From: Alteromonadaceae bacterium
GTDB taxonomy: Bacteria; Pseudomonadota; Gammaproteobacteria; Enterobacterales; Alteromonadaceae
NCBI GenBank assembly: GCA_015491935.1
Contig: WGGB01000201.1
Span: 1-37,121 of the forward strand
Direction: 5' to 3'
DNA: 37,121 nt
Part shown: positions 3,791-27,258 of the stretch, piece by piece
Layout of the letters: every line of letters starts with the position of its first letter
Numbering within the stretch: the stretch's first letter is position 1
Translations under genes and position numbers: made by a program
Notes under the pieces: generated by a model
The model's input: the letters and a program-made list of their open reading frames with translations, nothing else
What the model was told of the DNA's origin: nothing
Databases searched by the model: none

Positions 3791-6700
3791 TTACTGCCCT
3801 GTGTTTTCTATAAGGTTAGCGCTATTACATACTTTACTCTTCATTCTATCTTCCATAAAGCGCTCCATGCGCGCATAAAATAATGGTAATAAATACAAGG
3901 TAGTGATGGTTGATGTGATCAAACCACCAATGACCACTATTGCTAACGGTTTTTGAATTTCAGCTCCTGGTCCTGTAGCAAAAGCTAAAGGGATCAAACC
4001 AAACATTCCTGTAGATGCTGTCATTAAAATAGGTCTTAAACGACGATTAGCACCATCAATGACTCTATGATTTAAATCATTAATCAGCATTTTTGTTTGT
4101 TCAAAATAACTGACCATTACCACGCCATTAGCAACAGCAACACCTAATAAAGCAATAAAACCTACAGAGGCTGGAACAGAAAGATATTCACCACTAATAT
4201 ATAAAGCGATAATACCTCCCATAACCGCAAAAGGTATATTTGCTAGGATCAGTGCTGACTTTGTTAAAGAATTAAAAGTAGTAAATAAAATAATGAAAAT
4301 GAGTATTAAAGCTGCAGGTACTACAATTAATAAGTTTTTAGTTGCTCGCTGCTGACTTTCAAATTCACCACCAAACACTAATGTATAACCACTTGGCATA
4401 ATAACTTTTTGACTTATTTGTTGATTTAATTCATCAACAAAGCCAACAACATCTCGTCCAACAACATTGGTACTAATAGAAACAAAACGATTGCCCTTTT
4501 CACGCTCAATGAGTAAAGGGCCATTTTTAAAACTAATATTGGCAATCGTTTCTAAAGTCATTAAACTATGATCAGGCATTAACACCATTATATTTTTTAA
4601 TTCAGCTAACGAAGTAATGCTTTTGGCTGTTACGTGTTTATTTACACTCACGTTAGTATGATTACTTAACACAACTGCTGTAGATTTATTACCCTGTAAA
4701 ATTTCAGATACTGTGTATTCTTCTAACTGAGATTTTAAAAACATCGACAATTCTTTTACTGTCATTCCTGCTTGCATGGCAACTTCAGGAATAAGCTCAA
4801 TATTAAGATACTTACCACCTTCAATTAAAGCTGCTTGCACATCAGCACTCCCTGTCACTTTATTAGTAACTTCAGCAATGTCATTCGCCAATTTAGCCAA
4901 TATGTTAACATCATTGCCAAATACTTTTATTGAAACATCACCCGTGCTACCTGTTAACATTTCAGATACACGCATTTGAATGGGTTGAGTAAAACCAATA
5001 TTAATCCCTGGAAATTCTACTAATACTTCCCGAATTGCTTGTACAAGTTCAGCTTTGGTTTCAAAACGCCATTCATCACTAGGGGCAAGCTCCATAAAAA
5101 CATCCGTTTCATTTAAGCCCATAGGATCAAGCCCAAGTTCATCAGAACCTGTTCTTGCAACTATTTGTTTTATCTCAGGTACTCTCTCTAATAGTATGCG
5201 CTCTATTTGTTCATCTAAATCAATTGATGCCTGTAAAGAAATACTAGGCGATTTTTCTAACTGAACGATAATATCCCCTTCGTCTAGTAATGGCATAAAG
5301 CTTTTCCCTAACCCCATAAATAATACACCACTTAGCACTAATATTGCGCTAATGCTGAACACAAACACTTTAGGTGCTGCTAACATTTTAGTTAATGTGC
5401 GCTTATAAAAGTGTTGCATTACGGTAACCATTTTAGGATCTTTAACCGCCTCATCTTTAAGTAAAAAAGACGCCATAATAGGAATGATGGTTAACGATAA
5501 AAGTAAAGCACTGATCATGGCAAAAACAATAGTAAGTGCGACTGGTGTAAACAATTTACCTTCTAACCCCGTTAACGTCAGTAAAGGTGAAAAGACAATC
5601 AACACAATAATAGTGCCCACTACAACAGGCACCGCTACTTCTTTACAGGCGCGGTAAATAACGTGTAAACGTGGTAATGACTTATTCTTTGAAAGTTGAT
5701 TAACGATGTTTTCAACAATGACCACCGAGGCATCAACCAGCATACCTATAGCTATCACCAGTCCGCCTAAACTCATTAAATTGGCAGAAAGATTGAAGTA
5801 ATTCATTAAAATAAATGTCATCAATGCAGCAAGTGGTAAAGATAACGACACCACAATAGATGAACGTAAATCACCTAAAAATATCGCTAACAAAATAATC
5901 ACTAAAATAACCGCTTGAGCCAATGCGCTGGTAATGGTGCTAATAGCAGTATCAATCAAGTTTGAGCGATCATAAAACACATTAATTTGTGTACCTTTAG
6001 GCAATGATGGTGCAATTTCAGCAAGTTTTGCTTTTACATTTCTAACTACCTGCGCAGTGTTACTATTTTTTAAAGCAATAATTAACCCTTGTGCGGTTTC
6101 TTTACCATCTTTTGTTACCGCACCATAACGTGTTAAATGCCCTATATTAACGGTAGCTATATCACTTAAACGAATAACTTTATTGCCTTGACCTTTTTTA
6201 GTAACTGATTTAATAATAAGTTTTTCTAAATCGGCAAGGTGAGTTAAACGCCCTTGTGTGCGTAAAACTAAGGTATCATTACCTTTAATTAATCGTCCGA
6301 TACCGCCATTAATATTATTATTTGCTAATGCTTGCTCAATGTCGCTAAATGATATTTTTAATTGCGCCATAATTAAAATATCAGGGCTAATTTCAAAGGT
6401 TTTTACATAACCTCCTAAGCTATTTACATCTGCAACGCCAGCAACCGTTCTTAATAGCGGCCTAATTTGCCAATCAAGTAATTCTCGTCTCTGAGTCAGC
6501 GATAAATTAGGGTTTTCAACGCTGAACATAAACATTTCACTCAGCGGTGTACTCATTGGAGCCATGCCACCACTGATATTCTTAGGTAAAGATGACCATA
6601 TATTCATTAAACGCTCATTCACTTGCTGACGAGCCCAATAAATGTCAGTACCTTGTTCAAAATCAATAGTAATAGCGGTAATTGAATACTTAGTGGTTGA

Positions 6701-6949
6701 ACGCAACATTTCTTGCGCAGGAATACCAAGTAACTCTGTTTCAATAATACGAGTCACTTGAGATTCTATTTCAACCGATGTCATACCTGGCGCTTTAAGC
6801 ACTATTTTCACTTGTGTAGGTGAAATATCAGGAAAAGCATCAATAGGAATATTGAGCCAAGATTTTGCACCTATAATCACTACAATTAGCGCAATAATGC
6901 TAACGAATAATCGTTGTGACAAAGAAAACTTAATCAGTGATTGCAACAC
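3791..6949 (-). CDS. CusA/CzcA-family heavy-metal efflux RND permease
   Basis: Inner-membrane proton-driven pump of the HME branch of RND transporters (1052 residues, usual size). A first membrane helix near residues 11-31 is followed by the HME signature in the porter domain (GTDIYWARQQVNERL). Helix 4 has IAIGMLVDASVVIVEN with a single Asp in the proton relay, as in HME rather than HAE1 pumps. The porter region has MRVSEMLTGSTGDV, a Met-containing variant seen in CzcA-like proteins. Substrate metal (Cu/Ag versus Zn/Co/Cd) cannot be fixed from sequence. The start is a GTG overlapping the TAG stop of the adaptor gene by one base, with GGGGGTGAG just before it, indicating coupled translation. 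Confidence 0.93.
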   Translation of the reverse strand: MLQSLIKFSLSQRLFVSIIALIVVIIGAKSWLNIPIDAFPDISPTQVKIVLKAPGMTSVEIESQVTRIIETELLGIPAQEMLRSTTKYSITAITIDFEQGTDIYWARQQVNERLMNIWSSLPKNISGGMAPMSTPLSEMFMFSVENPNLSLTQRRELLDWQIRPLLRTVAGVADVNSLGGYVKTFEISPDILIMAQLKISFSDIEQALANNNINGGIGRLIKGNDTLVLRTQGRLTHLADLEKLIIKSVTKKGQGNKVIRLSDIATVNIGHLTRYGAVTKDGKETAQGLIIALKNSNTAQVVRNVKAKLAEIAPSLPKGTQINVFYDRSNLIDTAISTITSALAQAVILVIILLAIFLGDLRSSIVVSLSLPLAALMTFILMNYFNLSANLMSLGGLVIAIGMLVDASVVIVENIVNQLSKNKSLPRLHVIYRACKEVAVPVVVGTIIVLIVFSPLLTLTGLEGKLFTPVALTIVFAMISALLLSLTIIPIMASFLLKDEAVKDPKMVTVMQHFYKRTLTKMLAAPKVFVFSISAILVLSGVLFMGLGKSFMPLLDEGDIIVQLEKSPSISLQASIDLDEQIERILLERVPEIKQIVARTGSDELGLDPMGLNETDVFMELAPSDEWRFETKAELVQAIREVLVEFPGINIGFTQPIQMRVSEMLTGSTGDVSIKVFGNDVNILAKLANDIAEVTNKVTGSADVQAALIEGGKYLNIELIPEVAMQAGMTVKELSMFLKSQLEEYTVSEILQGNKSTAVVLSNHTNVSVNKHVTAKSITSLAELKNIMVLMPDHSLMTLETIANISFKNGPLLIEREKGNRFVSISTNVVGRDVVGFVDELNQQISQKVIMPSGYTLVFGGEFESQQRATKNLLIVVPAALILIFIILFTTFNSLTKSALILANIPFAVMGGIIALYISGEYLSVPASVGFIALLGVAVANGVVMVSYFEQTKMLINDLNHRVIDGANRRLRPILMTASTGMFGLIPLAFATGPGAEIQKPLAIVVIGGLITSTITTLYLLPLFYARMERFMEDRMKSKVCNSANLIENTGQ

Positions 6950-11995: not shown

Positions 11996-13396
11996 ATGAA
12001 TAAATCATCGAGCAAAATACTTCCATTACAAAAAAAATCGCATAAAAGTTTGGTACTATTAATTAGTGCAGCTTTATTTTCTAGTGCTTTGGTCTTGCCT
12101 CAGCAAGCTCATGCTGGTTTTCCTTTTTCTATTGGTTCAAAGCAATTACCCAGTCTTGCACCTATGATTGAAAAAGTCACTCCTACGGTTGTTAGTGTTT
12201 CAGTTAAAGGCACTCACGAAGTTAAACAGAACATCCCTGATGCATTTAAGTTCTTTTTTGGTCAAGGGCAACAAAAACGAGGACCACAAGAAAAACCTTT
12301 TAAAGGTTTAGGTTCTGGCGTTATTATTGACGCGAAAGAAGGTTATATTGTTACTAATTATCACGTTATTCATGAAGCCGATAAGATTGAAATCACTTTA
12401 AAAGATGGTCGTCAATTTACGGCCAAAAAATTAGGCGCTGATGCCGAAAGTGATATTGCATTATTGCAAATAGAAGCCGATGATCTTCATGCTATAAAAA
12501 TTGCTGACTCAAACAACTTACGTGTGGGCGATTTTTCTGTTGCCATTGGTAGTCCTTTTGGATTAGGGCAAACAGTTACTTTTGGTATTATAAGTGCTTT
12601 AGGGCGTAGTGGCTTAAATATTGAAAATTTTGAGAACTTTATTCAAACCGATGCAGCAATTAACCCAGGTAATTCAGGTGGTGCTTTAGTCAACTTAAAT
12701 GGTGAACTTATTGGGATTAATACCGCAATATTAGGTCCTGGCGGCGGTAATGTTGGTATTGGTTTCGCTATTCCCAGTAGTATGGTTAAAAATTTAGTTG
12801 ATCAAATTGTTGAATTTGGTGAAGTGCATCGTGGTGTTCTTGGTGTTGCTGGTCGTAGTATAGACAGTGATATTGCTAAGGCTATGGATTTAAAAACGAC
12901 ACAAGGTGGTTTTGTCCAAGAAGTTACTCCAGACTCAGCAGCAGCACAGGCGGGTATAAAGGCTGGTGATGTTATTACTAAAGTTAACGGTAAAGCAATT
13001 AAATCGTTTGCTGAATTACGTGGTAGGATTGGCTCTATTGGCGCAGGTAAAAAAGTTAAAATTACGGTGATCCGTAATAATGGAGAAGAAAGAGTATTTA
13101 CCGTAAAATTAAAACGTAATGAAAGTGTTAACGTTGAAGCTAAAAATATTCATCCTGCGTTTAAGGGAGCCAAATTAGAAAACAACGACACAGGCCCAGG
13201 TGTAAAAATAAGCGAAGTTACCCCTAAAACCAATGCAGCTTATGTTGGGTTAAAAGCCAATGATATTATTATTGGTATTAATCGTAAGCCTATTAATAAT
13301 ATTACCGAGTTGCGTAAAACCTTAAAAGATCATCAAGGTGTTTTTGCATTAAATATAAAACGTGGTAAAAATAACTTGTATATTATGATCCGTTAA
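11996..13396 (+). CDS. degQ: Periplasmic serine endoprotease DegQ/DegP (Do family)
   Basis: A periplasmic quality-control protease and chaperone. A signal peptide with cleavage after AHA (about residue 40) precedes a trypsin-like domain with intact triad H123 (TNYHV), D153 (SDIALL) and S227 (NPGNSGGA). Two PDZ domains follow (about 270-370 and 375-466), the Do-family architecture. The 466 residues and the position before degS point to DegQ. An AGGAG lies 11 bases before the ATG. A strong terminator separates it from degS. Confidence 0.95.
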   Translation: MNKSSSKILPLQKKSHKSLVLLISAALFSSALVLPQQAHAGFPFSIGSKQLPSLAPMIEKVTPTVVSVSVKGTHEVKQNIPDAFKFFFGQGQQKRGPQEKPFKGLGSGVIIDAKEGYIVTNYHVIHEADKIEITLKDGRQFTAKKLGADAESDIALLQIEADDLHAIKIADSNNLRVGDFSVAIGSPFGLGQTVTFGIISALGRSGLNIENFENFIQTDAAINPGNSGGALVNLNGELIGINTAILGPGGGNVGIGFAIPSSMVKNLVDQIVEFGEVHRGVLGVAGRSIDSDIAKAMDLKTTQGGFVQEVTPDSAAAQAGIKAGDVITKVNGKAIKSFAELRGRIGSIGAGKKVKITVIRNNGEERVFTVKLKRNESVNVEAKNIHPAFKGAKLENNDTGPGVKISEVTPKTNAAYVGLKANDIIIGINRKPINNITELRKTLKDHQGVFALNIKRGKNNLYIMIR

Positions 13397-16006: not shown

Positions 16007-16042
16007 AAAAAAATCACTTATGGCTATTTTTATAGCCATAAG
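16007..16042 (-). terminator. Terminator whose stem encodes the last codons of the solute-binding protein
   Basis: On the minus strand CTTATGGCTAT-AAAA-ATAGCCATAAG is a perfect 11-pair hairpin, followed by the TGA stop codon and seven T residues. The stem lies inside the coding sequence (encoding the end YGYKNSHK). It would serve transcripts from the riboswitch operon direction. Confidence 0.85.
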
Positions 16043-16793
16043 TTGCCAATATCGCCTGATAACGACCATTGTTTTTGAGGCTCTTTATGCATTGATCTAT
16101 TTTCTTCAAAAAAGCTTGCGGATCAGTAATATTTTTAGATTTTTTTGAAACGGTAATAAAATAATTTTTTTCATTTATAGTATAATCAAGTACATTAATT
16201 TTATCACTCACACCTAATTTTTGCGCTTGCCAATAAAAGGTTGTCTTAGCGTCAGCCATAATGTCAAAGCGTGGCGTTGGCGCCAGTAATTGAGAAAACA
16301 TAGCAACTAAGTTGTAGCCAGTGGTTAATTCTTTATTCTTAGCTTTAGCCTCAATTATTTCCATCAATTCAGGGGAATAAGATAAACCAGCTAAATATCC
16401 CATTTTATAAGGCGTTAAATCTGCTAATTTAGTAATATTTATATCGCTGTCTGCGCGTACCATAAAACCATAATTAGTATTAAAAAGGCTTTCTTTACCA
16501 TACCAAACAAATTTTTCTCGACTTTTGCGATAAGAATAAATAGTGATATCAATATCACCATTTTCCATATAAAGATGTGTTCGCTTAACAGGCAACCGAT
16601 GATATTCAGTATTATAATCAGCCTGAGACAGACAAATATTGATTAATTCTTTGCCAATACCTTGCTGTTGTTTATCACCAGTAAAAAAGTAAGGAGGCCA
16701 ATAAACATCATTAATAATAATAGATTGCTTAGCATACAGAGGAAACGCTACTAATATAGCAATAAAAAGAAAGGTAGTTTTTGAGTGATACAT
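16014..16793 (-). CDS. Periplasmic solute-binding protein, family 3 (orphan)
   Basis: A 259-residue secreted protein with a signal peptide ending LYAKQ at about residue 22 and a bilobed amino-acid-binding fold (SBP_bac_3): NDVYWPPYFFTGDKQQQGIG, then GDIDITIYSYRKSREKF and YKMGYLAGLSY. No permease or ATPase gene is adjacent, as is common for stand-alone members in marine Alteromonadales. It starts 71 bases after the M14 deacylase gene. TTGATT and TAAATA at 17 bases in that gap could be its own promoter, or it may be the last gene of the lysine operon. The ligand is unknown. Confidence 0.83.
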   Translation of the reverse strand: MYHSKTTFLFIAILVAFPLYAKQSIIINDVYWPPYFFTGDKQQQGIGKELINICLSQADYNTEYHRLPVKRTHLYMENGDIDITIYSYRKSREKFVWYGKESLFNTNYGFMVRADSDINITKLADLTPYKMGYLAGLSYSPELMEIIEAKAKNKELTTGYNLVAMFSQLLAPTPRFDIMADAKTTFYWQAQKLGVSDKINVLDYTINEKNYFITVSKKSKNITDPQAFLKKIDQCIKSLKNNGRYQAILATYGYKNSHK

Positions 16794-16864: not shown

Positions 16865-17995
16865 TTATAAAATAAAAAAGTTAGTGAAAACTTTATAAAG
16901 CTCAGTACCTTGATTTACACTCGCAGAAGCAAAATGCAAAATAGGTAACACGGGGTGATCCAGCGTTAAATAGTGTATTGCTTTATCACTGGCATTGCTC
17001 ATTTCAAGATCATAGTTATCCATGCGTAAAATACGCGCTAACGGCTGCCCTGCTGGTAATGGTTTGCCAAATTCAGCTAAATAATCAACCATGCCGCCCA
17101 TCGGTGAATAAAATGCTTTATAATTTTTTAAATAACAAGCATAACGAGTGATATTTTCGGGAGCATATTGTTTATTTGAAAGTACATTTTTAAACGCTAA
17201 GTAGCTTAAAATACTTTTAGCATCTTCTTTGGCAAGCTCTAAATTAATTTGTTCTTGTGAACCTAATTCAACGGTAAAGGCTTCTTTATTAAAAGTAAAA
17301 TTTCGTCCTAAACGCTTAAACTCAGTTTGCAATTTCCACCATGGACAAAAATTAGCTTCATCCATAGCGCCGTCAAATTCATTAGGAATTAAAATAGTAT
17401 GTTCAATATTAAAATAACTGGCGCTCTGTTGTGCATATTCAGGACAATATAAATGTTTGCTCGATATTGGCCCTGTATGTAAATCTAATACTATATCTGC
17501 TTGTTGAGCCATGCGTTGCAGTTGATAAGCAATACGTTGACCAGTAGTTAAGCCGTATTGGTTATGCTCAAGTTTATCGGTTATTTCAGTGTGTAATAAT
17601 TGTTTGAAAGCAATATCAACTTCAGCATCACTCGCCTGTAAATATTGCAGGGCAAAGGGTGCAATAATACTTTCATTAAAATGATACATACGATTCCAAT
17701 TAATGCCGGTAATGGGATCAAAACGACCTAGTGTATATTCACCATTTTTATGGTTACAAGCAACGGGATTAGCGTAAGGAACTAAGGTGATTTCACCCTT
17801 AAATTTGGTATTTTTTAGTATTTCTAATAACTGAAAAATAACCGCATTGCCTTGTACTTCCGCACCATGCATATTTGCTTGAATATACACTTTGGGCCCT
17901 GCAATATTGCTTTTTAACCGATATACAGGAATACTCAATTGCGCACCACTAGCCATTTCACCAACATACAGTACTTGTTTAGAAAATTCAGTCAT
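16865..17995 (-). CDS. M14-family zinc deacylase (AstE/aspartoacylase-like), candidate N-succinyl-DAP desuccinylase
   Basis: A 376-residue cytoplasmic zinc hydrolase of the succinylglutamate desuccinylase/aspartoacylase group. The zinc ligands are visible as H43 and E46 (NMHGAEVQG) and H173 (LDLHTGP), with the probable catalytic base E243 (FTVELGS). A C-terminal beta-rich domain (about 285-360) contains SPMGGMVDYLAEFGKPLPAG. Family members remove acyl groups from amino-acid derivatives. It is the fourth gene of a lysine-riboswitch operon that makes N-succinylated intermediates (DapD) but has no dapE, so it may remove the succinyl group from N-succinyl-LL-diaminopimelate. That assignment is inference; other N-acyl amino acids are possible. 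Confidence 0.85.
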   Translation of the reverse strand: MTEFSKQVLYVGEMASGAQLSIPVYRLKSNIAGPKVYIQANMHGAEVQGNAVIFQLLEILKNTKFKGEITLVPYANPVACNHKNGEYTLGRFDPITGINWNRMYHFNESIIAPFALQYLQASDAEVDIAFKQLLHTEITDKLEHNQYGLTTGQRIAYQLQRMAQQADIVLDLHTGPISSKHLYCPEYAQQSASYFNIEHTILIPNEFDGAMDEANFCPWWKLQTEFKRLGRNFTFNKEAFTVELGSQEQINLELAKEDAKSILSYLAFKNVLSNKQYAPENITRYACYLKNYKAFYSPMGGMVDYLAEFGKPLPAGQPLARILRMDNYDLEMSNASDKAIHYLTLDHPVLPILHFASASVNQGTELYKVFTNFFIL

Positions 17996-18007
17996 AACCT
18001 ATTGCCT

Positions 18008-19252
18008 TTACCTTAAATATTCACTTGCTACTTGTGGGGCTCGTACTTGCGTTAATTCACCTTGTTCAAAAACATATTCAGCGGCGACGTTATGACAGAG
18101 GAAAAACGGCATACTTTCAGAGAATCCATAAGCACCGCAATAGCCAAAAATCAATTCATCACCTACAGCCACATTTGTAGGTAATGGCAAAGTGCCAAGT
18201 TTGTCTAAGCTAGTGCACAGCGGGCCATGCATATGATAGTCCACCATTGGTGTAAGCTGTTGCTTATCTGATAACAATGTACAAGGAAACGCTTGTTCGG
18301 TAATGGCAGGGCGAATAATATGATTAATACCAGCGGCTAACACCAATTGTTGTTCAGTAAAGTTAGTTTTTTTATCGACAATGTCAGTGACATAATACCC
18401 ACATTCACCAACCGCATAACGACCTAATTCAAGCCACAATTCTGTAACCTCGGCTTGTTGTTTTATTTGCGCTAAATCACGAATAATTTGCGACCAAGAA
18501 AGCGTATTAGTTTGTGTTAAATAATCAAGCCCTAAACCGCCGCCTAAATCGAGTATTTTCAGCGCCATACCTAACTGTTTAGCAAGTTCAGTTAATGGCG
18601 CTACCATTTGTGACCAAAGTGAATACATTTTTTCATTGCTGAGCATATTGCCCCACTGAAAAATATGTAAGCCGCAAATATCAAGCGCAGGATAATCACG
18701 CAATGATATTTGCTGCCACTTGGCGGTTGATAATCCAAAAGGTGTTAAACTATTTCCTCCTAACGGATTTTTTTTACCGTCTGGCCATTGTAATTGCACC
18801 CGCAATAAAACAGTCGGCTTAACCTTAAGTTTTGCGGCACATTCATTTAACCAAATAAGTTGATTAACGCTTTCCACCACAAAGGTATTCACCCCTTGCT
18901 CAAGAAAATACTGCAATTGTTTTTTTGATTTAGCTGGCCCTGTATTTAAAATACGTTCAGGGGCAATATCTTGCGCGAGTACTTGCTGCAATTCCCCGAC
19001 ACTGGCAACATCAAAATTAAAGCCTTGTCCGTCTAATGCCTTGATAACATGTGATAACGGATTTGCCTTTACCGCATACCAAAGTTTTACGACATCTTGC
19101 TGTTGTAAATTAGCTAAATGCTGCTTTAACTGATCAAGATGATAAACAAAATAGCCATTTTCACTGTCCAGTATATTGTCATTTTTATTAGCTGCTTTAT
19201 CTTGCAAACTTAACGCTAAATCATCGGCTAACCAATGTGGAAAATCACTCAT
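18008..19252 (-). CDS. LysA-like PLP-dependent (fold III) decarboxylase
   Basis: A 414-residue alanine-racemase-fold decarboxylase. The PLP lysine is K62 (WYAVKAN), the phosphate-binding motif is LDLGGGLG (about 235-242), LELGRY corresponds to the E-x-GR motif, and C346 (HGPLCTSLD) is the active-site Cys donated by the partner subunit. It departs from standard LysA: the usual HIGS-type motif reads HIFQWGN, the CESxD motif reads CTSLD, and the last motif is GAYGFSES. These resemble LysA relatives that act on modified substrates. In context, between dapD and the deacylase, meso-diaminopimelate decarboxylation is most likely, but specificity is uncertain. It starts 8 bases after dapD. Confidence 0.85.
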   Translation of the reverse strand: MSDFPHWLADDLALSLQDKAANKNDNILDSENGYFVYHLDQLKQHLANLQQQDVVKLWYAVKANPLSHVIKALDGQGFNFDVASVGELQQVLAQDIAPERILNTGPAKSKKQLQYFLEQGVNTFVVESVNQLIWLNECAAKLKVKPTVLLRVQLQWPDGKKNPLGGNSLTPFGLSTAKWQQISLRDYPALDICGLHIFQWGNMLSNEKMYSLWSQMVAPLTELAKQLGMALKILDLGGGLGLDYLTQTNTLSWSQIIRDLAQIKQQAEVTELWLELGRYAVGECGYYVTDIVDKKTNFTEQQLVLAAGINHIIRPAITEQAFPCTLLSDKQQLTPMVDYHMHGPLCTSLDKLGTLPLPTNVAVGDELIFGYCGAYGFSESMPFFLCHNVAAEYVFEQGELTQVRAPQVASEYLR

Positions 19253-19260
19253 AATTTACC

Positions 19261-20010
19261 CTAACGTAAAACGCTTTCAAGCGCTAACGAGGCATCACTT
19301 TGCTCGTCGCGATACTTAACGATAAGTGCACACGCCATATTTAAACCATGTTCACTTGCCCATTCGCCTTTCATAGGACGCGTACCAGGAATAACCACTG
19401 CACGTTCAGGAATGGGCGCGCCACGCTCAAGCATTACGTTATTAACACAATCAAAGACAGGAATAGACGCCGAAAGCGAAACACCTGGCGCGATCACCGC
19501 GCCTTTTTTCACTACCACACCTTCAACAATAACCACGCCTGCACCTAAAAACGCATCATCTTCAATGATCACAGGACTCGCACCAACGGGCTCTAACACG
19601 CCGCCTATTTGTACCGCCGCCGAAACATGAACATTTTTACCAATTTGCGCACACGAACCAATAAGTGCGTGACTATCAACCATAGTACCGCTGTCAACAA
19701 ACGCGCCAACATTAATGTAAGCTGGCGGCATAATGATCACACCTTTGGCAACATAAGCACCGCGTCTAACTGATGAACCACCGGGGACTAAACGGACATT
19801 ATCGGCAACAGTGAATTGACGTGCAGGTAAGTTATTTTTATCAACAAAACCTTGGTAATTCCCCTTAAATTCAATATTTTCTCCCGCTTTAAACGCCGCT
19901 AAAACCGCTTGCTTAGCTTCAATATTTGCACTCCATTGACCTTGTTCATTTCGGGTTGCCGAACGTACTGTGCCTGCTTCTAATTGTGATAAAGTTTCTT
20001 GCCAGCTCAT
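19261..20010 (-). CDS. dapD: Tetrahydrodipicolinate N-succinyltransferase
   Basis: A left-handed beta-helix acyltransferase that adds a succinyl group from succinyl-CoA to tetrahydrodipicolinate, opening the succinylase branch of the DAP pathway. Hexapeptide repeats are clear, and MPPAYINVGAFVDSGTMVDS and GSCAQIGKNVHVSAAVQIGG are DapD signatures. At 249 residues it is shorter at the N-terminus than E. coli DapD (274) and resembles the DapD subgroup typical of other phyla, so horizontal origin is possible. Parts of it are noticeably richer in G+C than its neighbours: 30 of 60 bases at 19441-19500 against 15 of 60 at 17161-17220. It starts one base after the dapA stop. Confidence 0.9.
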   Translation of the reverse strand: MSWQETLSQLEAGTVRSATRNEQGQWSANIEAKQAVLAAFKAGENIEFKGNYQGFVDKNNLPARQFTVADNVRLVPGGSSVRRGAYVAKGVIIMPPAYINVGAFVDSGTMVDSHALIGSCAQIGKNVHVSAAVQIGGVLEPVGASPVIIEDDAFLGAGVVIVEGVVVKKGAVIAPGVSLSASIPVFDCVNNVMLERGAPIPERAVVIPGTRPMKGEWASEHGLNMACALIVKYRDEQSDASLALESVLR

Positions 20011-20011
20011 G

Positions 20012-21031
20012 TTAGGCTCCTACGGCTTGGTTAGATTGAATTAATGACTTGGTTGATGTTAGTAGTGAATTTTGTTCAATAAACCAAGCTTTGATTTGCT
20101 GGTCATAGCGTTGAATATCATCGCTTGAACTGAGTTCTAAATGCGTTAATGGTGCACGTAAATTAGGTAAACTAATTTCACCTTGTAAATGCATTAATAT
20201 TTTTACAGGGATAGGATTGGCGACACTAAATAAGCTCGCAATCGCATTATTCCACAGAGGAAATAACGTTTTTGATTCGTTAGCTAATGATAACTCAACA
20301 TAACGTTTAGTTGGTGCAGGCCATGCGTTAGCACATACCGATACTAGGCCTTTTACACCTGCATTAGCTAAATAAGGCACCATAGCATCTTCACCACTAA
20401 ATAATGCGACTTCAGGCACAGCTTGACGGTAAGCTAAAAATGTATTGATATCGCCACTGGCCTCTTTCATCGCCCAAAAGTTAATGTGTTTACTAAGGTT
20501 TTTAACCGTTTGTAATGGGATTTCAGCACAGCTACGTGAAGGGACATTGTAAAGCATACACGGAAACTTAGCCGTATTGAGTAATTGTTCAAACCACTGA
20601 GTTTGTCCAACAACGCCAGGCTTTGCATAAATAGGTGTGCCAAGTAAATAAGCGTCTATTGGATATTGATTACATTGCTCTACCCATGCTGTTTGTTCAG
20701 GTAAATTATGACCACCAACCGCAACCATAAGTGGGGTATTTAACTTAAGCTGACAAATAAACTCGACTATTTTTGTTTTTTCAACAAGGGTTAACGCTAA
20801 GCCTTCGCCCGTACTACCTAACAAAACAATACCGTTGCCTGCTGCAGCTTGTTTAGCAGCAATAACGGCTAACGAATCGAAGTCGATACTGTCGTTTTCG
20901 GTAAAAGGAGTAATTAATGCTGTCCATAATACAGTATCACTAAGTGTACTGTTGACTGCACTATTTGCCACATTAGTGGCAGATGTATTAAATGATGATA
21001 AATTATTTTGATTCATTGCTCTCGAACTCAT
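20012..21031 (-). CDS. dapA: 4-hydroxy-tetrahydrodipicolinate synthase (lysine-riboswitch controlled)
   Basis: A class I aldolase-fold enzyme that condenses pyruvate with aspartate semialdehyde, the committed step to DAP and lysine. Active-site residues are present: Schiff-base K189 (AMKEASGD), Y161 and R166 (LYNVPSRS), and S73/T74 (GSTGEG). The 339 residues exceed the E. coli 292: a Ser/Asn-rich segment of about 33 residues precedes the barrel and about 20 follow it. Two in-frame starts exist, ATG at 21031 and ATG at 21016; the first lies in a hairpin loop and neither has a good ribosome site. It is the first gene of the riboswitch operon. Confidence 0.92.
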   Translation of the reverse strand: MSSRAMNQNNLSSFNTSATNVANSAVNSTLSDTVLWTALITPFTENDSIDFDSLAVIAAKQAAAGNGIVLLGSTGEGLALTLVEKTKIVEFICQLKLNTPLMVAVGGHNLPEQTAWVEQCNQYPIDAYLLGTPIYAKPGVVGQTQWFEQLLNTAKFPCMLYNVPSRSCAEIPLQTVKNLSKHINFWAMKEASGDINTFLAYRQAVPEVALFSGEDAMVPYLANAGVKGLVSVCANAWPAPTKRYVELSLANESKTLFPLWNNAIASLFSVANPIPVKILMHLQGEISLPNLRAPLTHLELSSSDDIQRYDQQIKAWFIEQNSLLTSTKSLIQSNQAVGA

Positions 21032-21043
21032 GTCGTTCGGAGA
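21020..21043 (-). promoter_or_regulatory. Hairpin enclosing the first dapA start codon
   Basis: TCTC-C-GAAC pairs with GTTCGAGA around the loop GACATGA, an 8-pair stem with one bulged C. The first dapA ATG sits in the loop, and the downstream strand carries the only purine-rich stretch before the second ATG. It could tune translation; this is inference. Confidence 0.5.
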
Positions 21044-21059
21044 ACTTTTTAGGCGTTTG

Positions 21060-21094
21060 CAAATAACAAATGATCAGAGTGAAAATTTCTGACC
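21060..21094 (-). terminator. Riboswitch expression-platform terminator hairpin
   Basis: On the minus strand TGGTCAGA (21094-21087) pairs with TCTGATCA (21077-21070) over 8 positions with a 9-base loop, then TTTGTTATT. Its 5' arm GGTCAGAA can instead pair with TTCTGGCC, the 3' strand of aptamer helix P1, forming an antiterminator. This is the layout of a transcriptional OFF switch. Confidence 0.7.
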
Positions 21095-21104
21095 AGAGTT
21101 TTTA

Positions 21105-21280
21105 CAAAGGCCAGAAGCTCTCCACCTAAAGGTGACAGTCGCAAAAACTCAATTTTGACGACCGATAAATGTAGCACCAAAACTACCTTTACCTCGGCGT
21201 TAATCCCCCTCAATATTCATCAATGAAGTTTGATCTTCTCTGAATATTTACCTGGTTAACGCTCCTCTTCTGGCCCTTTT
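21105..21280 (-). promoter_or_regulatory. Lysine riboswitch aptamer
   Basis: On the minus strand the P1 strands GGCCAGAAG (21275-21267) and CTTCTGGCC (21116-21108) pair perfectly. Between them are the conserved lysine-aptamer segments in order: AGAGGAGCGTTAACCAGGTAA, TGAGGGGGATTAACGCCGAGGT, CGGTCGTC, and GACTGTCACC...GGTGGAGAG. They follow the same order as in the E. coli lysC leader. Lysine binding should reduce expression of dapA-dapD-lysA-deacylase. Confidence 0.95.
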
Positions 21281-21315
21281 TGATATTGATTTGTTTCGTT
21301 TGTTATTAATATTTT

Positions 21316-21344
21316 GTTATATTAATAACGCATAAACAAACCAA
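21316..21344 (-). promoter_or_regulatory. Candidate promoter of the lysine riboswitch operon
   Basis: TTGGTT (21344-21339) and TATAAC (21321-21316) are 17 bases apart on the minus strand and about 40 bases before the aptamer, placing the transcript start near 21308. Confidence 0.55.
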
Positions 21345-21512
21345 TCAGAATAAGGGACAAGGCTATTAAATCATTTTTTAGAGTTTTTAGTCAACTTTAA
21401 TTTGCATATTGTTTAAGCATTTTTGCTAAGTTGATAAAAATTGATTTTAATTAGCTTATCAATCTAAACTAACGTAGGATCACCTCAGATACTAGCTGTT
21501 AACTACAATACC
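21345..21512. other. Spacer between riboswitch promoter and rsmC
   Basis: No gene. It contains a 7-base inverted repeat TTGATAA (21431-21437) and TTATCAA (21456-21462). No promoter or ribosome site for rsmC can be assigned with confidence. Confidence 0.4.
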
Positions 21513-22786: not shown

Positions 22787-25700
22787 TTAAGCAACTTTAG
22801 CTTTATATTCTTTTTCACCAAAGCCAAATACGACTCGTTTTATCCAGCGATAAATATTGCCAAAAAAACGACGAGTATCTGCAAAAATCAAATATAAGCT
22901 TGGCATTAAGATTAAGGTGACTACCGTTGCAAACAACACCCCAAAGGCTAATGACACTGCCATAGGAATTACAATCAATGCTTGTGCACTCGTTTCACTC
23001 ATAATCGGTACTAAGCCAATAAAAGTCGTTAATGACGTTAACATGATAGCGCGAAAACGATTACAACCAGCACCAACAACAGCATCAACTATGCTCGCGC
23101 CTGCTTTTCGTGCTTTATTGATATAATCAACCATTACTAATGAATCGTTAACCACTACACCTGCGACGGCGATAATCCCAAACATAGAGAATAAATTAAG
23201 ATCCATGCCCATGATCAAGTGACCAAAAACAGAGCCAACAATACCAAAGGGGATCACGGTCATGATCATAAGTGGCTGCGTGTAAGATTTTAATGGAATA
23301 GCCAATAATGAATAAATCACTAACAGCGATACCACTAAGTCACGTATTTGATCAGCAAATCCTTTCATTTCTTCTTGAATTTTACCTGACAATTCACTCT
23401 TAACTAATGGGTATTTACGTAATAATTTAGGCACAAAGTTATCGCGAATATCTTTTGCTACTTTAAAGGGTTCAACCTGATCCGCATCGACACTCGCCCA
23501 AACGTTAATGGTACGATTACCGTTTTCACGACGCACACGGGTAACGCCATCGGTAACAATAATATCGGCCAATTCAGACAAAGGTAGCTCAGCACCATTA
23601 GGCGCTTTGATCATTACATCATTAACTTGACCAATTGAATTACGTTGGTTTTGAGGGTAACGTACCATCACCTTTACTTCTTCACCATCACGTAAAATAC
23701 GCTGCGCTTCTAAGCCATAAAAACTATAGCCAACTTGTGAAGCAATATTAGCTAAAGTTAAGCCCATGCTATAAGCCAATGGTTTTAAAGAAAATTGTAC
23801 TTCTTTAGCGCTCGTTTGGCGACTGTCGTTAACATCAGCAACACCTTTAAGGCTATTTAATTTATGTTTTAACTCTTTTGCGGCTAACAATAATTGTTGA
23901 TCGTCTTTACTTTCTAAACGAAAACTTATATCGCCATCTTCTCGTCCACCACCAAATAAATTATCGCTAATCGTTAATGATTTAACGCCTGGCATTGACG
24001 GAATAGCTTTACGCCATAAATCTGCTAGTTCAAAAGTATTAATGGGGCGCTCTTTGGGTATAACTAACTTAACCATAATTTGTGCGCTGGTACGACTACG
24101 CATATCGACTTGCATATCAGCGATCATACTTTTGCCGTAATCCGATATCACTTTTTTATCAACGTCATAAATAACACTTTCAACTTTTTTCAAGGTCGCT
24201 AAAGTGGCTTTTTCAGAACTATCGACATTCATTTCAATTTTAATGCGTGGAAAATCATGCGGTATTTTAGGTTGACCAACATAACGAATAATACCGCCAC
24301 CAAATAAGCCAGCACTCAATAATAATATGCTGATAAAAAACATTAATACGGCCCAGCGATACTCAAGACACTTCAGTAAAAATGGGCGGTACATTTTTTC
24401 GATAAAATAGCGTAAACCATTATCAATAGCGCGACGCAACCTATCGATAGGATTACGAGGGTTAAACACTTTAGGCTTCATGTGTGCAATATGCGCAGGT
24501 AAAATCAATTTAGATTCTATCAATGAAAAAAGTAAGCATAACACCACCACATAACCTATGGCATGGCCATAAGCTGAACCTTGTCCGTCTGCTAATACCA
24601 TTGGCATAAAAGCGGCAACGGTGGTTAATACGCCAAAAGTTGCTGGCATGGCAACACGTTTAACTCCCACAATAACATTGTCAATGGTATGACCTTTTTT
24701 CTCTATCTCTGCGTGGGCACTTTCGCCAATAACAATGGCATCGTCCACCACAATACCTAATACTAAAATAAAGGCGAACAAACTGGTAATGTTAATAGTG
24801 ACGTTAATAAATTCCATCGGCATCATAAATAATGTACCTAAAAATGCTACAGGTAAGCCCATCATTACCCAAAAAGCTAAACGTACACGTAAAAATAACG
24901 CCAACATTAATAACACTAATAATCCGCCACTAACCATATTACCTAACATCATGTCTAAACGACCTTGCAAGTAATATGTCATATCAACCCATGTCTCTAA
25001 TTTAACATTAGGGGGTAATACTTTTTGCTTTTCACTGACAAATTTATCAATAACTTTGGCGACTTTAGTAATACTTTGATTATCTGCGGCCCCAACAAAA
25101 ATGGTTACTGAGTTCTTGCCATTAAATTTAGAGTATTGCAAACCTTCAGTAAAACCATCGTGTATCGTGGCAATTTCACCCAACAATATTTTACTGCCAT
25201 CAGCTAAAGTAACTACAGGTACTTTTTCAAATTCAAAACCACGATAGGCTTGATTTTCAACGCGTAAATTAATATAACCATTTTCTGCGCGAATTTGCCC
25301 TGCCGACATATTGCGCGAAGAATTACGCACTGCATTGGCGACATCTTGAAAACTTAAACCATATTCACGAAGTTTATCTTTACTCACTTCTATAGATATT
25401 TCATAAGGTAAACCACTAAAAAAATCAGAAACATTAATTGTAGGTAATTGTTGAATTTCATTATGTATTTTACGACCTAAGTTTTTCAATTCTCGATAAC
25501 TCATGTCACCATATAAACTGATATACATAACTTCTTGACGAAATTTTTCTCGTTGTACGGTAGGTCGTTCAATCCCCGCAGGAAAACTCGAAATAGAGTC
25601 AATTTGTCCTTTTACCTCTTCTAAAATAACTTGCGGATCATAATTTTCGTCGACTTCAAGCCAGCCATTAGAAGAGTTTCGGTTAGAGTAAGTGATCACT

Positions 25701-26044
25701 CTTTTTAAACCTTGTACACTTTTTAACGCTTCTTCTATTTTAATGGTAATGCCTTCTTCCACTTCTTGTGGGGCAGCACCAGGATAAGGCACACTGTAAG
25801 ATAACCAGTTGATTTTAAACTGTGGAAACATTTGTTTATTGATAGTGAGTGCTGTTAAAGCACCACCTATAATGATAAATATCATTAATAAATTGGCAGC
25901 AACACTGTTACGTGCAAACCAAGCAATAATACCTTTATTTGTGTCATACACAGTATCATCTAAAAGATCAGGATCATTATCTAAATTGGTCTGTAATTTT
26001 TTATCGCTAGGTGAGCTTGATGGTGTTTTCTTATGAGTTGCCAT
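22787..26044 (-). CDS. Efflux RND transporter permease (AcrB/HAE1-like)
   Basis: A proton-driven inner-membrane pump of 1085 residues. The cytoplasmic N-terminus is extended by about 40 residues (Ser/Asp-rich, up to TVYDTNKG) before the first helix (NSVAANLLMIFIIIG). The first porter loop has YPGAAPQEVEEGI. Helix 4 contains LVLGIVVDDAIVIGES with the paired Asp residues of the HAE proton relay, distinguishing it from the HME pump in this window. The C-terminal membrane half has FGIIAVAGVVVNDSLVMVDY. It lies 2 bases after its adaptor gene. No outer-membrane factor is encoded beside it, so it probably uses a TolC from elsewhere. Substrates are unknown. Confidence 0.92.
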   Translation of the reverse strand: MATHKKTPSSSPSDKKLQTNLDNDPDLLDDTVYDTNKGIIAWFARNSVAANLLMIFIIIGGALTALTINKQMFPQFKINWLSYSVPYPGAAPQEVEEGITIKIEEALKSVQGLKRVITYSNRNSSNGWLEVDENYDPQVILEEVKGQIDSISSFPAGIERPTVQREKFRQEVMYISLYGDMSYRELKNLGRKIHNEIQQLPTINVSDFFSGLPYEISIEVSKDKLREYGLSFQDVANAVRNSSRNMSAGQIRAENGYINLRVENQAYRGFEFEKVPVVTLADGSKILLGEIATIHDGFTEGLQYSKFNGKNSVTIFVGAADNQSITKVAKVIDKFVSEKQKVLPPNVKLETWVDMTYYLQGRLDMMLGNMVSGGLLVLLMLALFLRVRLAFWVMMGLPVAFLGTLFMMPMEFINVTINITSLFAFILVLGIVVDDAIVIGESAHAEIEKKGHTIDNVIVGVKRVAMPATFGVLTTVAAFMPMVLADGQGSAYGHAIGYVVVLCLLFSLIESKLILPAHIAHMKPKVFNPRNPIDRLRRAIDNGLRYFIEKMYRPFLLKCLEYRWAVLMFFISILLLSAGLFGGGIIRYVGQPKIPHDFPRIKIEMNVDSSEKATLATLKKVESVIYDVDKKVISDYGKSMIADMQVDMRSRTSAQIMVKLVIPKERPINTFELADLWRKAIPSMPGVKSLTISDNLFGGGREDGDISFRLESKDDQQLLLAAKELKHKLNSLKGVADVNDSRQTSAKEVQFSLKPLAYSMGLTLANIASQVGYSFYGLEAQRILRDGEEVKVMVRYPQNQRNSIGQVNDVMIKAPNGAELPLSELADIIVTDGVTRVRRENGNRTINVWASVDADQVEPFKVAKDIRDNFVPKLLRKYPLVKSELSGKIQEEMKGFADQIRDLVVSLLVIYSLLAIPLKSYTQPLMIMTVIPFGIVGSVFGHLIMGMDLNLFSMFGIIAVAGVVVNDSLVMVDYINKARKAGASIVDAVVGAGCNRFRAIMLTSLTTFIGLVPIMSETSAQALIVIPMAVSLAFGVLFATVVTLILMPSLYLIFADTRRFFGNIYRWIKRVVFGFGEKEYKAKVA

Positions 26045-26046
26045 GA

Positions 26047-27258
26047 TTAGTTCCCCATACTTGCTACTTGTGTTGTCTTAACCTTTTTTTTATCCAACTC
26101 GTCTTTACTTGGTGATAATGGTTTCTTTTTATCTATTAATGCCAATTTCATACCATCGACAGGGTAATCTAATGCCGAAATAATTAATTGATCACCATTA
26201 TTTAATCCCTCATTAATAATCACATTAGCACCTTCTTCTCGAACAATATTAACGGGGCTATAATGCAATTTAGAATGACTGTCTAATATGGCAACTTTAT
26301 TGTTATTTACTAAATAACGAGGAATAATGGCAGCTAAAGATAACTGTATGCCTTGAATTTTAGCATTAACATAAGAACCAAAACGTAACGGTTTTGCTTT
26401 AGTATTAGAGGCTAAATGATAAGGATCATCAACTTGAGCAACGAGATAAGTCATGCGAGATTTATCATCAACCACGCCCTCGTCACGAACAATATGCGCT
26501 TGCCATTGCATTTTTTGCCCTGATACGTCACCTTGCAATATGACTTTGGCATCTTTGCTTTGATTCATTAAAAACTTTAACTGATTATCTGCTACAGGCA
26601 ACCGCACTTCAGCGATATCAGTTGATAATAATTTACCTATTTGACTCCCTATAGTGACAAAAGAGCCTAAGCCAATATTACGGCTATCAATCATGGCATC
26701 ATAAGGCGCTTTAATTTCTGTACGCTGTAAATTACGCTTTGCCCGTAAAATATTTGCTTGTGCAGATTTTACTCGCGCTAATTCTTGTGCCAATTGCGGT
26801 TTGCGTAAACTTAACTCTGTTGGTGAGGCATCGGTAATACGTTTCCATTCAGTTTCGGCCACTTTGCCTTGTGCCATTTCAGTTTGTAATGACGCTTTTG
26901 CTGAAGCTAAAGTCGCTTGTGCATCAATTAATGCGGCTTGATAATCGCTTGGATCTATGCGCGCTAACAACTGCCCTTTTTTAACAAAACCACCACGAAC
27001 AAAGGCATCCGATAATTCAACTATTTGTCCTGTTACTTGCGCGACTAACTGAGTTTCATATTTAGGTTTTACAATACCGTAAGATTTAACATCTAAACTA
27101 AGTGGTGCCAAAGTAACTGTTTCAACGGCAACAATAGGCGTATTATCTACCGCTTCCTTTTCCTCGGGTGGTTTTTTCAAGCTACTGAGCCCAATCATTG
27201 TTAAAACACCACCGATTAATATAACAATTGGCATGATAATTTGTTTTTTAGTCGCCAC
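26047..27258 (-). CDS. Efflux RND periplasmic adaptor subunit
   Basis: A membrane-fusion protein of 403 residues. An uncleaved or signal-anchor helix (about 7-26) is followed by a barrel-sandwich lipoyl half (TGQIVELSDAFVRGGFVKKG), an alpha hairpin rich in Ala, Lys and Glu (about 108-180), the second lipoyl half (IKAPYDAMIDSRNIGLGSFV) and beta-barrel domains. It is the first gene of a two-gene operon with the RND permease. A candidate promoter lies at 27318-27345. Confidence 0.9.
   Translation of the reverse strand: MATKKQIIMPIVILIGGVLTMIGLSSLKKPPEEKEAVDNTPIVAVETVTLAPLSLDVKSYGIVKPKYETQLVAQVTGQIVELSDAFVRGGFVKKGQLLARIDPSDYQAALIDAQATLASAKASLQTEMAQGKVAETEWKRITDASPTELSLRKPQLAQELARVKSAQANILRAKRNLQRTEIKAPYDAMIDSRNIGLGSFVTIGSQIGKLLSTDIAEVRLPVADNQLKFLMNQSKDAKVILQGDVSGQKMQWQAHIVRDEGVVDDKSRMTYLVAQVDDPYHLASNTKAKPLRFGSYVNAKIQGIQLSLAAIIPRYLVNNNKVAILDSHSKLHYSPVNIVREEGANVIINEGLNNGDQLIISALDYPVDGMKLALIDKKKPLSPSKDELDKKKVKTTQVASMGN

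Follow-up and report, generated by a model that had tools for sequence, protein, structure and literature searches.

Contig WGGB01000201.1 of an Alteromonadaceae bacterium (assembly GCA_015491935.1), 37,121 nucleotides long and called the window below, carries on its minus strand a lysine riboswitch followed by four closely spaced genes: dapA2, dapD2, a gene for a pyridoxal phosphate (PLP)-dependent decarboxylase, here named DEC, and a gene for a zinc amidohydrolase, here named M14. A preliminary description made from the nucleotide sequence had proposed this riboswitch and these genes, with intergenic gaps of 1, 8 and 12 bases, and Rfam and protein family matches bear it out. The data are best accounted for if the operon specifies a lysine-only branch of the succinylase route, in which decarboxylation comes first, desuccinylation comes second and meso-diaminopimelate (meso-DAP) is bypassed. 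We put the probability of this reading at about 0.55.

Textbook lysine synthesis by the DAP routes runs via meso-DAP and LysA, and lysine is thereby tied to the supply of a cell-wall precursor. In the proposed branch, low lysine would turn the operon on through the riboswitch. DapA2, together with the DapB of the cell, would provide tetrahydrodipicolinate; DapD2 would succinylate it and an aminotransferase would convert the product to N-succinyl-LL-DAP. DEC would then decarboxylate the free L-amino end of this compound to give N2-succinyl-L-lysine, from which M14 would take off succinate to release lysine. The DapE, DapF and LysA steps, and meso-DAP itself, would be bypassed, and the supply of lysine could therefore be shut off with the meso-DAP of the cell wall untouched. 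The known succinylase route (DapD-DapC-DapE-DapF-LysA) has DapA, a DapD-type acylation, an aminotransferase and a PLP-dependent decarboxylation in common with this scheme, but it deacylates before it decarboxylates. In arginine synthesis via N-acetylornithine an acyl group shields the α-amine until late; its substrates and enzymes are different, and the parallel is an analogy only.

The decarboxylase had been called LysA-like in the preliminary description. Its likeness to LysA holds, its membership in the family does not: DEC of the window scores 183.2 bits with the lysA model TIGR01048, whose cut-off is 297.9, and other DEC proteins score from about 152 (a contig-end fragment) to 226 bits. 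The best family model, TIGR03099, gives 186.2 bits, below its cut-off of 478.45, and the FslC family model gives 50.7 bits against a cut-off of 500. An alignment of 30 LysA and 84 DEC proteins (distinct sequences after duplicate removal, some of them truncated) contains 45 columns that are conserved alike and 42 that are conserved but different. The PLP lysine, Arg278, Arg314, the catalytic Cys346 and Asp350 are the same in both groups (numbering of the window protein; DEC residue numbers in the alignment run one above it). The residue after the catalytic cysteine, in contrast, is Thr (Thr347) in 83/84 DEC and Glu in 30/30 LysA as well as in five solved LysA chains. Four residues after the second arginine, Thr is found in 82/84 DEC and Tyr in all 30 LysA. 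Residues K62, R278, R314, C346, T347, D350 and Y375 occur in every one of the 24 DEC sequences of alignment A1; DEC thus possesses the PLP lysine and both distal-carboxylate arginines expected of a LysA.

According to PMC8277567, T. maritima LysA holds the distal carboxylate of its substrate by two arginines and the distal amino group by Glu315; its E315T variant lost most activity on DAP and was active on 2-aminopimelate, which has no distal amino group, in the D form only. We equate Glu315 with the Thr347 column of DEC, given that in this family the position adjoining the catalytic cysteine has that role (PMC7857480). DEC resembles the E315T variant in having Thr for Glu at the distal-amino site with the distal-carboxylate arginines kept. 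E315T, however, is a laboratory mutant and still D-specific; DEC is a natural protein, and it differs from LysA in 42 conserved columns including this one. PMC7857480 places BtrK, SbnH and FslC/FigC, which act on conjugated L-amino acids, in a clade that contains LysA, FigC having Met at the place of the Thr. In our alignments the CT motif and neighbouring motifs are common to DEC, BtrK and SbnH. All these enzymes have the fold and PLP site of DEC, and SbnH and BtrK also have Thr after the catalytic cysteine, but they serve siderophores and an antibiotic, whereas DEC, at about 25% identity, sits in lysine operons. N-succinyl-LL-DAP, with its distal carboxylate kept and its distal amine blocked, would fit such a site. 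That DEC is not a normal LysA had been overlooked in the preliminary description; judged from its residues, the active site suggests that decarboxylation precedes deacylation.

The distribution of the genes ties DEC to DapD2. Within the order (394 genomes), 65 genomes have M14 and 21 have DEC; DapD2 occurs in exactly those 21 (E-value limits for M14, DEC and DapD2 1e-40, 1e-55 and 1e-60). M14 adjoins DEC and dapD2 in 19 of the 21; of the other two, G203 has a contig that breaks off inside DEC, and G418 yields no M14 at E 1e-40 (G and L numbers are our labels for genomes and loci). A survey of 369 genomes of the class added DEC in three more, G480, G618 and G722, of 2.0–2.1 Mb and perhaps Francisella-like. 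In 83 DEC loci, counted without the window's own copies (L004, L006, L008) and two duplicate places (L091, L142), dapD2 lies within the stretch in all 83 and inside the chained operon in 82; M14 is present in 78, dapA in 60, lysC in 9, a short divergent dapB in 4, an aminotransferase gene in 3 and asd in 1. The complete set that the preliminary description had suggested seeking in relatives, in the order dapA-dapD2-DEC-M14, occurs in 51 of them and dapD2-DEC-M14 in 20 more, so the operon order is not due to chance. The 80 named loci reached via M14 comprise 52 with dapA-dapD2-DEC-M14, 21 with dapD2-DEC-M14, five with dapA-M14 (L037, L043, L049, L056, L058) and two with M14 alone (L045, L086).

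Neither dapE nor dapF was found in any of the 83 DEC loci (stretches of 8.6–16 kb). As controls, the dapE query recovered 8/8 known dapE stretches, and of 34 stretches searched with the dapF query (33 around a canonical lysA, three lysA places being included twice) 23 gave a dapF match. Canonical lysA often, not always, accompanies dapF, whose product makes its substrate, and DEC accompanies dapD2. Some operons are fuller. In L179-L182 the order is riboswitch-lysC-dapA-dapD2-DEC-M14. L111, cut by a contig end, reads riboswitch-lysC-dapB-dapA-dapD2-DEC and then an aminotransferase gene; in L109 this gene set recurs, except that the aminotransferase gene lies upstream, preceded by its own riboswitch, and L110 has aminotransferase-asd upstream of riboswitch-lysC-dapB-dapA-dapD2-DEC. 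Thus lysC, asd, dapA, dapB, dapD and an aminotransferase gene each occur in some DEC operon, and the two steps from N-succinyl-LL-DAP to meso-DAP occur in none. The short divergent DapB proteins have 223–226 residues (L109 4646-5326, L110 10202-10879, L111 4113-4784, L112 1002-1679), and the two that were scanned score 81.9 and 106.7 bits, below the dapB cut-off of 122.

A protein scoring 172–177 bits in Shewanella-type genomes was considered as a hidden DEC and rejected, since it reads GPTCDSAD at the motif (one viewed, L143). Spread by plasmids was likewise set aside, as a search of the plasmid collection gave no DEC match at a limit of E 1e-40.

These data bear on a rival explanation, close to that of the preliminary description, by which M14 would be a lysine-repressed isozyme of DapE and DEC a divergent meso-DAP decarboxylase, the operon boosting ordinary lysine synthesis at times of shortage. 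That ordinary route has N-succinyl-LL-DAP as its succinylated intermediate, and canonical dapE, which marks the route, was found in nearly all genomes searched (see below); in addition, some genomes that have no DEC carry M14 under a lysine riboswitch with only lysC or dapA beside it. DEC, however, does not have the Glu that recognises the distal amino group in DAP, a change that cost the tested LysA most of its DAP activity, and dapF, which a meso-DAP route needs, was found in no DEC locus, although lysC, dapA, dapB, dapD2 and an aminotransferase gene each occur in one or another of these operons. The explanation also leaves the tie between DEC and DapD2 unaccounted for, and we consider it unlikely, at odds of roughly one to four.

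Riboswitch scans were run on a selection of 73 loci, of which 16 belong to the 80 named M14 loci and 5 have no M14, and on L045 and the window. Of the 24 DEC loci scanned, 22 have a lysine riboswitch. Where M14 lies beside a lysine gene the riboswitch is present in 47 of 48 scanned loci, and where no lysine gene is near, in none of 20, in agreement with the earlier assignment of M14 to lysine synthesis. A lax-threshold Rfam search of L089, L112, L092 and L045 returned no lysine aptamer.

The preliminary description had gone further and proposed that M14 replaces or duplicates DapE in a self-contained, lysine-repressed succinylase module. A riboswitch-controlled module of succinylase type with an M14 of lysine synthesis is what we find; the replacement of DapE is not. 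M14 may still be a duplicate of DapE, since some operons have it without dapD2 and DEC, and there the most evident succinylated substrate would be N-succinyl-LL-DAP. The genome of the window (3.2 Mb, 91.6% complete), in which second copies were sought for dapD, dapE and lysA, has canonical dapE (555.5 bits), lysA (489.8 bits) and dapD (469.3 bits), all outside the operon, and one M14 of the operon type. Canonical dapE exceeds its cut-off in 38/38 genomes reached via the named M14 loci and, within the order, in 64 of 66 genomes bearing M14 or DEC; on these grounds replacement of DapE by M14 was rejected. The two genomes in which canonical dapE gave no match at E 1e-60 are G418, a single contig listed as 100% complete, with dapD2-DEC (L089), and G067, 92% complete with 5% contamination, with dapB-dapD2-DEC-M14 (L112). 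Replacement of LysA by DEC was rejected in the same way: besides the window genome, canonical lysA exceeds its cut-off in 37/38 and 29/30 genomes, the exceptions being G002, where a lysA-type fragment on another contig is all that was found, and G134, which is 93% complete in 450 contigs. The 38 genomes are the same in both surveys and correspond to 39 of the 80 named loci less L058; the two dapE sets (38 and 66) overlap in part, as do the two lysA sets (38 and 30), and the counts are not additive. Since canonical dapE, lysA and dapD are retained, the operon stands as an additional set next to the housekeeping pathway.

With lysA nearly always kept, lysine itself need not require the operon, and its product might instead be another N-acyl-DAP derivative, such as an N2-acyl-lysine or a modified lysine. 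G418, which has dapD2-DEC with neither an M14 nor a canonical dapE match, would suit such a product. The lysine riboswitches of the scanned DEC loci and the lysC gene in nine of the 83 point to lysine, however, and we give this explanation hardly any credence.

M14 belongs to the AstE/aspartoacylase group, as indicated by its Pfam score (Table 1) and by invariant site residues. At E 0.001, AstE_AspA_cat was the only Pfam family reported, so that M14 is not a member of the M20 family of DapE; the NCBIfam models at the same limit gave no AstE equivalog and a weak match to DoeB (28.9 bits, cut-off 402.7). H43, E46, H173, N101, R102 and E243 are invariant in 25 M14 sequences, and we take H43, E46 and H173 to be the zinc ligands and E243 the catalytic glutamate. 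E243 aligns with the Glu changed in the E251A variant of CphZ (8eip). The nearest structures are two uncharacterised Shewanella entries (Z 47). CphZ is the nearest characterised relative, with a sequence match of 81 bits and, in the structural alignment (8ein, 8eip), Z 36.3, rmsd 2.6 over 350 aligned residues and 19% identity. Other fold matches are DoeB (Z 25.3), 3na6 (25.4), 3cdx (25.3) and AstE (17.6); 3na6 and 3cdx are succinylglutamate desuccinylases by annotation only.

The CphZ family takes an aspartyl group, a C4 dicarboxylic group, off the α-amine of Arg or Lys, much as proposed for M14. N2-succinyl-lysine is β-Asp-Lys minus the amino group of the aspartyl residue, and the reaction proposed for M14 would therefore differ little from one already known. 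The same kinship could mean that M14 hydrolyses β-Asp-Lys dipeptides of cyanophycin type, salvaging scarce lysine and merely sharing a riboswitch with biosynthetic genes; an Asparaginase_2-family gene in the stretch of a distant M14 that has no lysine genes near it (L097) would agree with this. We regard such a salvage role as very unlikely: identity with CphZ is only 19%, and the partners of M14 found in riboswitch loci, in a survey not aimed at cyanophycin genes, are the biosynthetic genes lysC, dapA, dapD2 and DEC. The distant M14 proteins with neither lysine genes nor a riboswitch nearby (L097, L099-L108, L157, L168, L170-L174) perhaps have a different function, of isoaspartyl type; the Asparaginase_2 family includes isoaspartyl peptidases.

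In a tree of 131 distinct M14 sequences the gene context follows the branching, with 8 changes compared with at least 41 in 200 shuffles. The group of 27 lysC-M14 sequences falls among DEC-bearing groups, at weak deep support (0.47 and 0.63). This position would suit a mixed scheme in which DEC acts as proposed and M14 is a broad enzyme for N-succinyl-LL-DAP and N2-succinyl-lysine, left alone in Shewanella-type genomes after loss of dapD2-DEC, or present there before their gain. One carboxylate separates the two substrates. The scheme overlaps the lysine-only branch and differs from it only in the second substrate of M14; as a separate account we hold it to be rather improbable, at about one chance in seven.

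Several observations weigh against the lysine-only branch. LysA decarboxylates at a D-centre, the centre available in N-succinyl-LL-DAP is L, and the E315T variant of T. maritima LysA remained specific for the D form (PMC8277567); Glu315 was moreover mapped by its position beside the catalytic cysteine and not by alignment of the T. maritima sequence. Fold comparison of DEC gave a near tie (LysA Z 39.6, SbnH 39.3, BtrK 39.1) and was dropped as a means of telling LysA from SbnH or BtrK. The acyl group that DapD2 transfers is presumed to be succinyl. dapF was not found beside 10 of the 33 lysA controls (three being second copies of one place), so the contrast of lysA with dapF and DEC without it is not universal; the lysA genes of the window (L005), G067, G232, G395, G480, G618 and G722 have no dapF found beside them. 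Because canonical lysA is nearly always kept, no genome was found where DEC must make lysine, and in G418 dapD2-DEC stands with no match to M14 or canonical dapE at the limits given above. Riboswitch operons without M14, which the preliminary description had named as counting against its view, do exist in part: in L109-L111 no M14 lies in the stretch read (that of L111 being cut short), and there another enzyme would have to remove succinate. Conversely, the riboswitch is present in 27/27 lysC-M14 loci without DEC or dapD2 and in 2/2 scanned dapA-M14 loci without them; in such operons M14 must have a use that does not involve N2-succinyl-lysine. In the lysC-M14 loci, either M14 acts on N-succinyl-LL-DAP too or it has another use. 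Our confidence stays near one half because the lysC-M14 loci without DEC, the M14 tree and L109-L111 fit poorly.

More generally, we lean slightly towards the view that several bacterial lineages run such a branch by means of a repurposed LysA with a natural Glu to Thr change, followed by desuccinylation, mostly by M14. If so, it would be a new bacterial route to lysine that uncouples lysine from the cell-wall precursor. It would also give a function to the M14 family, which has solved, uncharacterised structures (3fmc, 3lwu), correct the label lysA and provide a natural instance of a residue switch used by protein engineers. Open-access literature contained nothing on N-succinyl-lysine in lysine biosynthesis or on succinyl-lysine with diaminopimelate, most subscription papers lying outside the search; nothing was found there on the M14 annotation with Shewanella, lysine and aspartokinase, nothing on CphZ by name, and, judged by titles, nothing on this operon under lysine riboswitches in Francisella. 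Table 1 of PMC5584792, in the part available, lists a Pseudoalteromonas haloplanktis riboswitch operon as dapA-dapD-lysA-hypothetical1-hypothetical2, which is probably the operon described here, already recorded as riboswitch-controlled. In that part the decarboxylase is called lysA, the hydrolase is unnamed and no consequence for the pathway is drawn.

Table 1. Features of the lysine operon and its surroundings in the window
Feature	Position	Strand	Evidence and proposed role
Lysine riboswitch aptamer RF00168	21277-21107	-	102.6 bits (gathering score 30), E 1.9e-26, full length
dapA2, 4-hydroxy-tetrahydrodipicolinate synthase	21031-20012	-	TIGR00674 244.8 bits, above cut-off 206.15
dapD2, divergent tetrahydrodipicolinate N-acyltransferase, 249 aa	20010-19261	-	NF008808 296.6 bits, above cut-off 204; TIGR00965 196.4 bits, below cut-off 375.4
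DEC, alanine-racemase-fold PLP decarboxylase	19252-18008	-	proposed N-succinyl-LL-diaminopimelate decarboxylase
M14, zinc amidohydrolase, AstE/aspartoacylase/CphZ group	17995-16865	-	Pfam AstE_AspA_cat (PF24827) 103.5 bits, cut-off 25; proposed N2-succinyl-lysine desuccinylase, may act on N-succinyl-LL-DAP too
SBP_bac_3 periplasmic solute-binding protein	16014-16793	-	71 bases past M14
RND-type efflux, CusA/CzcA-family pump	3791-6949		
Second RND-type efflux system	22787-27258		ACR_tran-family protein adjoining periplasmic adaptor

The aptamer is the sole Rfam match in the window at gathering score. Together with the leader it has a stable predicted fold (z -5.29). The first ATG of dapA2 (21031) lies inside a predicted hairpin, and a purine-rich stretch precedes a second in-frame ATG at 21016, which may be the true start. 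The hairpin enclosing the first ATG in the folding model hints at translational control of dapA2. Simple scans of the leader region (21520-20950, minus strand) detected no promoter-like or terminator-like site.

An SBP_bac_3 gene near M14 recurs in just two of the 80 named loci, L009 and L010. Two efflux systems of RND type are also encoded in the window (Table 1). In the lysine-operon stretch of Colwellia marinimaniae (L028), a group II intron match of 54 bits was found at 13119-13284.

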